Assembly: GCF_021233415.1 (NCBI RefSeq)
Contig: NZ_CP089466.1
Coordinates: 806,001-870,000 of the forward strand
Length of the DNA stretch: 64,000 bases
Origin: Halobacterium litoreum
Lineage (GTDB): Archaea; Halobacteriota; Halobacteria; Halobacteriales; Halobacteriaceae
Reading direction: 5' to 3'
The notes beneath the pieces were generated by a model. That model made no database searches. It worked only from the letters and a program-made list of their open reading frames with translations, and had not been told where the DNA came from. Below are positions 50,744 through 53,719 of the stretch, one piece after another; positions within the stretch are counted from its first letter, which is position 1, and each line of letters opens with the position of its first letter. The translations under genes were made by a program, and so were the position numbers.

Positions 50744-50843
50744 CCACGTTCGTGGTTATTTCGAGTTCTCGGTGTGGGAATTACTGTCTAAATAGGCAGG
50801 AATGAACAACGCTTTTGAGGGTGGTTTCGGTGCGTCGACACGC

Positions 50844-52877
50844 ATGCGAACCGCGACACTGCTCGTGGTCTGTGCGCTCGTGCTGTCGGCAGCGGTGCCG
50901 GCGGCCGCGGTCGGTTCGGAAACCGCGACCCCCGCGGCGACCGAAGCGAACGCCACGCAGACCGAGAGCACTACCGTCACGATTCTCTCGTACAACGACG
51001 TACAGACGGCGATGGCGCAGAACGGGAGCGTCCCGCGACTCGCGACGCTCCTCGAACAGCGCCGCGCCGCCCACGACAACCCCACCTTCACGTTCGGCGC
51101 TGGCGACGAGGTCAGCCCGCACTCGATGTCCCCCATCTCGCAGTGGCGGACGCCCGTGAAGGTGCTCAACGAGATGCAGCCGGACGCCGAGGTCGTCGGG
51201 AACCACGACCTCGACTACGGCTTCGGCGCCGTGTCGAACTACTCGAACGCCTCCGAGTTCCCGTGGCTGCTCGCGAACGTCGTGGACAGCGAGACCGGCG
51301 AGACGGTGCCCGGCACGGAGCCCTACGAGGTCTTCGAGAAGGGCGGCGTGAAAGTCGGCGTCGTCGGCCTCGTCGACGAGAAAATCAAGTCCAAGACCGC
51401 GGTCGACTTCCAGAAGCAGGGGTACGAACTCCGGGACTACAGCGAGGTCGGCTCGGAGTACGCGACGATGCTGAAAGAGGAGAAGAACGTCGACGTGGTC
51501 GTGACGCTCGGCCACTTCGGGGTGCCGGTCGCGAAGGAGTTCGCGAACAGCACCGAGAACGTCGACGTGGTGCTCGTCGGTGACGACGAAATCGCCTACG
51601 AGCCGAAGGCGACCGACGGCGTCGTCATCAGCGAGGCCGCCGGGCGCGCGGCGTACCTCAGTGAACTCAACCTCACCGTCGAGAACGGCGAGGTGACGAA
51701 GTGGAACGGTCGGCTCGTCGAGACCGACGAGAACGTCACGAAGGACAGCGAGGTCTCGAACATCATCGCCGATGCGCGCAGCGAGCAACTCTCCCGGGTC
51801 GCCGGGAAGACGACGACCGAACTCGACGCGCGGTTCTCCTCGAACTACCACGACGAGACCGCGCTCGGCAACCTCATCACGGACGCGTTCCGCTGGCAGA
51901 CGGACGCGGACGTCGCCATCACGAACGCGGGCGGCATCCGGTCGAACGCCCAGTACGGTCCCGGCAACCTCACCGCGGGCGACGTCTACAACGTCCTGCC
52001 GTTCAACAACCACCTCGTCACGGTCGAACTGACGGGGAGCGAACTCGAAGCCCTGCTCCAGAGCCAGGTCGTCACGCTGGAGAGCGAGACCGGCCAGCAG
52101 TACGGCGCGGAAGCCCAACTGCAGGTCAGCGGCGTGACCTACGAGTGGCTCGGCCACGAGCGCGCGAGCGACCAGATTCGCTCGCTGTACGTGAACGGCG
52201 ACCCCGTCGACCCCGACGCGACGTACACCGTCACCGTGAACTCCTACATGGCGGGCTGGGACGGCTCCGTGCTCGAGAACGCGACGCGCACGGGCGTCGA
52301 TTACACGATGTACGGCGAGGTCGTCTACGACTACGTCGCCGACCAGGGCACCGTGTCGCCGACCGACGCCAACCGCATCCGCCGCATCGACTACGAGACC
52401 GACGCGGGCGGCGTCGAACTCGACGGCGAGGGGTCGGTCACCGTCACCTTCGAGAAGCCGACCGCGGCGAACAACACGGTCGTGAACTCCCGGAGTTTCC
52501 ACGCGCTGAACAGCGAGAACGAGCGCGTGAACGCCACGAGCGCGTCCGTCGAGGACGGCACCGTCTCGGTGACCTTCGAGGACGGCGCGCTCCGAACGCT
52601 CGCCGAGTCGGGCGACGTCGAAGTGTACGGGAACTACGTCGTCGACCGGCCGGAGCGCCCGTACTTCGAGAACTCCGTCGTGAACGCGGAAGTCGACGCG
52701 TCGCTCGTGGAGCAGTCCACGACCACGCAGTCGACGACCGAGAGCACGACGACGACCGAGAACACGACGAACGCGACCACCGAGGACGAGTCCGGCGGTG
52801 ACACGCCCGGCTTCGGCGTCGGTGTCGCGCTCGCGGCGGTCCTCGGCGCGGCGCTCGTCGCCGTCCGGCGCGCCTGA
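50844..52877 (+). CDS. surface 5'-nucleotidase/UshA-like protein with PGF-CTERM tail; degenerate metal site
   Basis: 677 residues from the ATG at 50844; a CTTTTGAG box at about 50815-50822 precedes it, and an in-frame ATG at 50802 is less likely. A signal peptide (1-22) precedes a metallophosphatase-like domain (45-300): NDVQ at 51-54, GDE at 87-89, GNHD at 119-122, GHFG at 223-226, and VGDDEI at 245-250 where GHTH is expected. A 5'-nucleotidase C-terminal domain follows (NAGGIRSNAQ, VLPFNNHLVTVELTG). A Thr-rich linker ends in the archaeosortase signal TPGFGVGVALAAVLGAALVA plus RR. It is probably anchored and processed at the cell surface. Confidence 0.82.
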   Translation: MRTATLLVVCALVLSAAVPAAAVGSETATPAATEANATQTESTTVTILSYNDVQTAMAQNGSVPRLATLLEQRRAAHDNPTFTFGAGDEVSPHSMSPISQWRTPVKVLNEMQPDAEVVGNHDLDYGFGAVSNYSNASEFPWLLANVVDSETGETVPGTEPYEVFEKGGVKVGVVGLVDEKIKSKTAVDFQKQGYELRDYSEVGSEYATMLKEEKNVDVVVTLGHFGVPVAKEFANSTENVDVVLVGDDEIAYEPKATDGVVISEAAGRAAYLSELNLTVENGEVTKWNGRLVETDENVTKDSEVSNIIADARSEQLSRVAGKTTTELDARFSSNYHDETALGNLITDAFRWQTDADVAITNAGGIRSNAQYGPGNLTAGDVYNVLPFNNHLVTVELTGSELEALLQSQVVTLESETGQQYGAEAQLQVSGVTYEWLGHERASDQIRSLYVNGDPVDPDATYTVTVNSYMAGWDGSVLENATRTGVDYTMYGEVVYDYVADQGTVSPTDANRIRRIDYETDAGGVELDGEGSVTVTFEKPTAANNTVVNSRSFHALNSENERVNATSASVEDGTVSVTFEDGALRTLAESGDVEVYGNYVVDRPERPYFENSVVNAEVDASLVEQSTTTQSTTESTTTTENTTNATTEDESGGDTPGFGVGVALAAVLGAALVAVRRA

Positions 52878-52960: not shown

Positions 52961-53719
52961 ATGGCGGACTCCGACGGACCGACCGACGCGCCAGCGCTCC
53001 CGGAAATCATCGAGCGCGTCGACTCGCGGTCACCGACGCTCACCCTGTACAACGTGGACACGGACGACGTCGTCCTCGCGGACATCCAGTCGTACTTCGA
53101 CGTCCAGTCCGTGACGCTGCGGCGCGCGACCACCGACGACGCCCGCCCCCGGAACTTCGTGGTGCTACACGACGGCGACCAGTTCCTCGGCGCGGCGGGA
53201 CTGAAACACCTCTACAGCGTCATTCGTCCGGACTCGGAACTCCTCGACGTGTCGAACCCCGAGGAGATCGAGTACCCCGACTTGCTCCGGAAGATAACGC
53301 AGAACCTCTTCACGAACTACGGACGTCGCCGCATGACCGTGGCGTCCCGCGAGATAGAGGAGTACGCGTACCGGAACGGCGGGGCGGTCCACGCGGGCTT
53401 CCAGGAGTTGTCGAACTTCCGCACCCAGTACCGCCTCTACGGGTCGCTGGCGGACGCCGGCGTGGAGACCCACCTCTACGGCGCGCCCGACTGGCAGATT
53501 CCGACGGACGCACACGCGCTCCACGAGTACGACGACGACGAGATTACGGGGTCGTGGTTCGTCGTGCTCGACGGCGACGACGAGGACAAGCGCGCGCTGC
53601 TCGCGGAAGAACGGCGAGAAAACGAGTTCTTCGGGTTCTGGACGTTCGACGCGTCCATCGTGGACACGATTCTGGCGCGCCTCGACGCCTACCCGGCGAC
53701 GACGCCGTCAGCCCTCTAA
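52961..53719 (+). CDS. DICT sensory-domain protein
   Basis: 252 residues from the ATG at 52961. The DICT domain pattern appears in full: LTLYNVDTDDVVLADIQSYF, NFVVLHDGDQFLGAAGL, and RYLYG-type turns with FQELSNFRTQYRLYGSLADA, then a WFVVLDGDD strand and the closing FGFWTFDASIVDTILARL. DICT domains occur in light- and signal-related regulators of haloarchaea and cyanobacteria. No DNA-binding or output domain is attached. The 3' end overlaps the convergent thioesterase gene by 12 bases. Confidence 0.82.
   Translation: MADSDGPTDAPALPEIIERVDSRSPTLTLYNVDTDDVVLADIQSYFDVQSVTLRRATTDDARPRNFVVLHDGDQFLGAAGLKHLYSVIRPDSELLDVSNPEEIEYPDLLRKITQNLFTNYGRRRMTVASREIEEYAYRNGGAVHAGFQELSNFRTQYRLYGSLADAGVETHLYGAPDWQIPTDAHALHEYDDDEITGSWFVVLDGDDEDKRALLAEERRENEFFGFWTFDASIVDTILARLDAYPATTPSAL

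Follow-up and report, generated by a model that had tools for sequence, protein, structure and literature searches.

The window analysed here (the whole stretch of 64,000 nucleotides from Halobacterium litoreum) encodes an exported protein that is probably an active phosphohydrolase related to UshA and CD73 and anchored at the cell surface, acting most likely on nucleoside 5'-phosphates with a rebuilt, oxygen-rich two-metal site. As judged from sequence comparisons, the family of this protein is a variant of the known two-domain group that differs in its metal ligand set, and the swapped ligands are more likely to have retuned the family to other metals than to have abolished its activity.

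Gene and domain organization

The frame is free of stop codons from 50802 to 52877 and the gene is intact. Within it, translation most likely starts at 50844 (MRTATLLVVC...), because the orthologues begin there and because GAGGGTGGTT, a possible ribosome-binding site, lies directly upstream. Along the protein, the signal peptide is followed by the Metallophos domain, the 5'-nucleotidase C-terminal domain, a further beta-rich region, the Thr-rich linker and the PGF-CTERM signal. The features are:

50844-52877, + strand: gene for the exported UshA-like protein, 677 aa, stop codon included (open frame; Pfam and NCBIfam matches; orthologues)
50844-50912, + strand: predicted Sec-type signal peptide, residues ~1-23 (hydrophobic stretch, no twin arginine in a pattern scan)
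50982-51584, + strand: Metallophos domain, residues 47-247, motif V extending to 249 (PF00149; fold match to UshA/CD73)
50994-51008, + strand: motif I, NDVQT, residues 51-55 (Asp52 retained, Gln54 in place of His; aligned with D-x-H)
51096-51110, + strand: motif II, GAGDE, residues 85-89, with the bridging ligand Asp88 (G85, G87 and D88 invariant, n = 68)
51198-51215, + strand: motif III, GNHDLD, residues 119-124, with Asn120, His121 and Asp124 (G119, N120, H121 and D124 invariant, n = 68)
51510-51521, + strand: motif IV, GHFG, residues 223-226, with His224 (invariant, n = 68)
51579-51590, + strand: motif V, GDDE, residues 246-249, replacing GHxH (E249 in 68/68, D247 in 64/68; aligned with GHAH)
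51801-52265, + strand: 5'-nucleotidase C-terminal (nucleoside-binding) domain, residues 320-474 (PF02872)
52719-52802, + strand: Thr-rich linker, residues ~626-653 (sequence)
52803-52871, + strand: predicted PGF-CTERM archaeosortase signal, residues 654-676 (PF18204 and TIGR04126; artA in the genome)

The two-domain architecture of the UshA/5'-nucleotidase superfamily is present, with PF00149 (47-247, E 1.3e-6) followed by PF02872 (320-474, E 2e-42), both above the Pfam cut-offs, and the C-terminal domain contains the motifs NAGGIR (361-366), LPFNN and NSYMAGWD. Against the named NCBIfam equivalogs (UshA PRK09558, CpdB/YfkN, SoxB, NadN), the protein scored far below every curated cut-off (UshA 140.5 vs 600 bits, SoxB 111 vs 550, CpdB 49.5 vs 486). 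Two AlphaFold models were of middling confidence, with only 11 sequences used; the first clearly matches UshA, CD73 and 3IVD (VIA-align Z ~29-30), the identity in fold alignments to UshA, CD73, Thermus 5'-nucleotidase and 3IVD is 19-26%, and the GNHD loop is poorly modelled (pLDDT <50 in both models). With E. coli UshA, human CD73, Thermus 5'-nucleotidase and E. coli c4898 (3IVD) the window protein shares the PF00149 plus PF02872 fold, motifs II, III and IV, the nucleoside-site residues and an extracytoplasmic location. Unlike them, it has D-x-Q instead of D-x-H, GDDE instead of GHxH and an archaeal PGF-CTERM anchor.

The earlier note had read a Thr-rich linker and a PGF-CTERM archaeosortase target at the C-terminus, and this was borne out: PF18204 matches residues 654-676 above the Pfam cut-off, TIGR04126 scores 34.3 bits (NCBIfam cut-off 24.5), and the archaeosortase A gene (artA) was found in the same genome (TIGR04125, 320.6 bits). 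With its PGF motif, hydrophobic helix and basic end, the window protein is a predicted PGF-CTERM/ArtA substrate. Among its orthologues (clade A, below), some of whose ends fell outside the fetched stretches, PGF-CTERM was seen in about a third, a few had dockerins and the rest ended in neither; by this survey the predicted anchor is real in the window protein and is not a trait of the whole family.

Metal-site residues and their conservation

In the superfamily, motif I is D-x-H and motif V is GHxH with a variable second position, and canonical members normally keep the His of D-x-H and the first of the two in GHxH. In profile-profile alignments, motif I of the window protein (YNDVQT in its fuller context, residues 50-55) was aligned with TNDLHA of bacterial relatives, placing D52 on the Asp and Q54 on the His, and D247 and E249 were aligned with both His of the GHAH motif of a canonical relative. 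As a second method, a profile search against PDB entries agreed on the residue equivalence by aligning GDDE with GHAH of 3IVD. In the modelled site of S. pombe Efn1, metal 1 is held by D101, N135, H238 and H269, and metal 2 by D55, H57, D101 and H271 (PMC11708047). Mapped onto the window protein, these positions are D88, N120, H224 and D247 for metal 1 and D52, Q54, D88 and E249 for metal 2, so that four ligand positions are the same as in canonical enzymes and three are replaced, His by Gln, Asp and Glu. Gln54, Asp247 and Glu249 are aligned to ligand columns and are of residue types that can bind metals. Efn1 and Efn2, secreted phosphate-scavenging two-domain 5'-nucleotidases, resemble the window protein in having modelled ligands at matching positions, but Efn1 has the full canonical His set (H57, H238, H269, H271) (PMC11708047).

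The sample comprised 391 genomes of the class, of which 65, by our own count, carry an orthologue of the clade of the window protein; 68 non-redundant haloarchaeal orthologue sequences constitute clade A. The genome of the window (2.7 Mb) groups with Halobacterium, the named orthologues being from H. salinarum DSM 3754 and Halobacterium sp. TGN-42-S1. Motif I of clade A was NDIQ in 37 sequences, NDVQ in 30 and NDLQ in one, D-x-H thus being absent and D-x-Q present in 68/68; motif V was GDDE in 64 and GHDE in four, without a single GHxH. Motifs II to IV (GD, GNH[DE], His) were present throughout. No variation was observed at D52, Q54, D88, N120, H121, D124, H224, E249, R366, F387 and N389, although only 52 of the 471 core columns were invariant. 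All seven ligand columns carried ligand-capable residues, six of them invariant and the seventh Asp or His (n = 68). The nucleoside site (the Arg of GGIR, two aromatics and an Asn, with roles taken from PMC11708047) was likewise retained, R366, F387 and N389 being invariant and position 468 Tyr or Phe across the 68 orthologues. Divergence between sequences in the metal domain relative to the substrate domain was 0.99 in clade A and 0.95 in the canonical clade C.

The letters reported by the earlier note, NDVQ in motif I and GDDE at the GHxH site, are correct and are fixed in the orthologues except for the four with GHDE, which is far from a chance pattern, and GNHD, GHFG and the C-terminal 5'-nucleotidase domain are kept as it had stated. 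The alignment it proposed, which asked whether the change is family-wide among haloarchaeal homologues, answers that it is. Its phrase "missing key metal ligands" needs correction, as Gln, Asp and Glu, all capable of binding metals, have taken the places of the canonical His; at the sequence level, these are the substitute ligands at the same positions that it had named as evidence against its own reading.

Phylogeny and probable stepwise change of the metal site

In a tree of 114 sequences, obtained by a quick ML search and with provisional deep joins, clade A and the nested clade B formed one supported group, separate from clade C, the bacterial relatives and clade D. The four GHDE sequences branched outside the supported branch uniting all GDDE sequences. 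Because of this position of the GHDE forms, a stepwise history is suggested, in which D-x-Q with GHDE came first and GDDE later. A Tistrella plasmid protein carried NDID in motif I together with GHDE.

Clade B (eight sequences: L077-L082, L151 and L152) had a single origin within the GDDE group. Its motifs were NDIG (Gln54 to Gly), QNHE, Pro for His224 in motif IV and mostly GDDQ or GDDH, and its proteins, of 900-1200 aa, had an additional domain at the N-terminus and, in many cases, a dockerin. Judged by these motifs, true ligand loss belongs to clade B and not to the window protein, and clade B is the better pseudoenzyme candidate. Dockerin-bearing relatives in clade B (L077, L078, L079 and L080) and, on a Halarchaeum plasmid, in clade A (locus L165:5416-6258) had almost directly behind them the coding sequence of another exported protein (~280 aa). 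It has a single beta-sandwich-like domain (~130 aa), a Ser/Thr-rich linker and, in L077 and L080, its own PGF-CTERM end. Pfam and PDB searches of this protein gave no match supporting a cohesin; it could be a cohesin-like protein that anchors the dockerin at the surface.

The haloarchaeal canonical clade C (L083-L096 and others) is similar to the window protein in being exported, in its two domains (33-36% identity) and, in many members, in its C-terminal PGF-type ends, but differs in its HD-x-H motif I, its mostly GSHS motif V, of which the second ligand column is also variable, and its mostly twin-arginine signals. Among the signals detected by a simple pattern scan, twin-arginine signals made up 22/23 in clade C and 7/54 in clade A. 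This suggests that clade C may be exported folded and metal-loaded and that most of clade A may fold after export, in brine rich in Mg, where oxygen ligands would be appropriate. Two relatives of clade C (L107, L108) kept HDTH in motif I and had GDDAA at motif V, an apparently independent loss of the GHxH His.

In clade D, motif I was S-D-x-E, GGH was present and export signals were mostly lacking. Two paralogues in the genome of the window (L002 and L003; G000:C1:697370 and 706379) showed the departure from D-x-H common to clade D, with S-D-x-E in motif I and GGHxxxE or GGHEHDE, and the pattern scan detected no export signal in L002. No relatives of the window protein were found on viral contigs. 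One record of the plasmid collection (L161, NZ_CP141089.1) is labelled as an E. coli plasmid but is chromosome-sized (4.9 Mb) and probably mislabelled.

Proposed activity and alternative explanations

From the alignments and conservation we infer the metal occupancy and identity, catalysis, substrate and role of the window protein as follows. Metal 1 would be bound by Asp88, Asn120, His224 and Asp247 and metal 2 by Asp52, Gln54, Asp88 and Glu249; the two metals would activate a water for attack on the phosphate, which would be stabilised by Asn120, His121 and Arg366 while the base is stacked by Phe387 and Tyr468. The exchange of His for Asp, Glu and Gln would be expected to move the metal preference away from Zn or Co and towards Mg, Mn or Ca, a suitable choice for a protein that is exported by Sec and folds in the brine outside the cell. 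More tentatively, the new oxygen-dominated set (Asp, Gln, Asp, Asn, His, Asp, Glu) may well take Mg2+, Mn2+ or Ca2+ from the brine and not Zn2+, and may have arisen stepwise via GHDE. For such chemistry PhoD of Bacillus subtilis, an active extracytoplasmic enzyme of the metallophosphatase superfamily in which Asp ligands hold Ca2+ where its relatives use His (PMC4223295), is a precedent. It belongs to the PAP-like branch, has three metals and lacks the 5'-nucleotidase C-terminal domain, so it is a precedent for the chemistry and not a relative.

The earlier note was right that the protein is UshA-like, sits at the surface and has a changed metal site, and its "non-catalytic" alternative becomes the minority reading. 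Altered chemistry is favoured because a large family has kept the altered residues through long divergence, because the replacements are ligand-type residues at ligand columns, because the catalytic NHxxD, Arg366 and the base-stacking aromatics are conserved alongside, and because the relatives truly losing ligands form a different clade. Invariance of H121, D124, R366 and F387 and a metal domain as constrained as the substrate domain support activity, although conservation by itself fits an enzyme or a conserved binding protein alike. A pseudoenzyme would be recognized by ligand loss without capable replacement and by relaxed constraint; here Gln, Asp and Glu are conserved and the divergence ratio is 0.99, which makes inactivity less probable. 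Such a ratio is not expected of a decaying metal site, but could be displayed by a binding protein under selection.

It is fairly unlikely that the protein is a non-catalytic surface binder capturing nucleotides or other phosphates for uptake or adhesion. Such a binder would retain nucleoside or nucleotide binding in its C-terminal domain, and its metal site would be a vestige or house a single structural cation. The swap of two normally retained His in all or nearly all members, the full retention of the nucleoside-site residues and the further ligand losses in the nested clade B, by which loss is evidently tolerated in the lineage, would agree with it. A pure binder, however, would need neither N120, H121, D124 and the Arg nor ligand-type replacements at ligand columns, and changes have not accumulated faster in the metal domain than in the substrate domain. 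It also seems unlikely that the protein is an enzyme of the same fold whose changed ligands tune the site for another main substrate, i.e., cyclic nucleotides, nucleotide sugars, polyphosphate or a non-nucleotide phosphate. The same fold occurs in the cyclic phosphodiesterases CpdB/YfkN and in SoxB, a thiosulfohydrolase, all of which were among the profile and fold matches, and an unassigned Mn/Co-dependent activity degrading exogenous polyphosphate is reported from Haloferax (PMC13318637), which may be a mere analogy. The conserved R366, F387, N389 and Tyr/Phe468 nevertheless indicate a nucleoside group, and all NCBIfam equivalog cut-offs, including those of CpdB and SoxB, were missed by far. 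Sequencing errors or decay in a single genome, for which nothing but the unusual residues themselves would speak, are practically out of the question and were rejected, as the same motifs occur in the orthologues of dozens of genomes and no stop codon interrupts the frame.

If the site is active, GHxH, GHDE, GDDE and the degenerate clade would form a natural ladder within one fold, on which one could test directly how, among metallophosphoesterases, the type of ligand relates to the choice of metal and to catalysis; if it is inactive, the family would be a widespread, conserved surface nucleotide-binding protein. The automatic label of a plain 5'-nucleotidase masks both cases.

Genomic context and possible role

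The role of an active window protein would be phosphate or nucleoside scavenging at the cell surface. Haloarchaea are known to draw phosphorus from extracellular DNA (PMC3929857); little is known of the steps that follow, and the window protein, if active, would identify a haloarchaeal enzyme of such scavenging. Three PF02872 genes were found in the genome of the window, only that at 50844-52877 having a detected export signal. In the class sample, no genome carried clade A together with the main canonical clade C, against 8.1 expected (P ~7e-5, phylogeny ignored). This exclusion would fit exchangeable enzymes but is only suggestive, because both groups are also lineage-bound and the comparison is confounded by phylogeny.

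No paper characterising the clade A family was found in the literature search. OE3017R of H. salinarum, annotated as "UDP-sugar hydrolase/5'-nucleotidase" and cell-cycle regulated (PMC1906763), may be an orthologue of the window protein or a paralogue without a signal. An operon or transporter partner was rejected, as no neighbour was common to different genera in the loci examined. The neighbours (an EamA transporter, a DICT-domain protein, a thioesterase and MoeA) are conserved only within the genus; among them, the DICT sensory-domain protein lies downstream at 52961-53719, and its pairing with the UshA-like gene is kept within the genus only.
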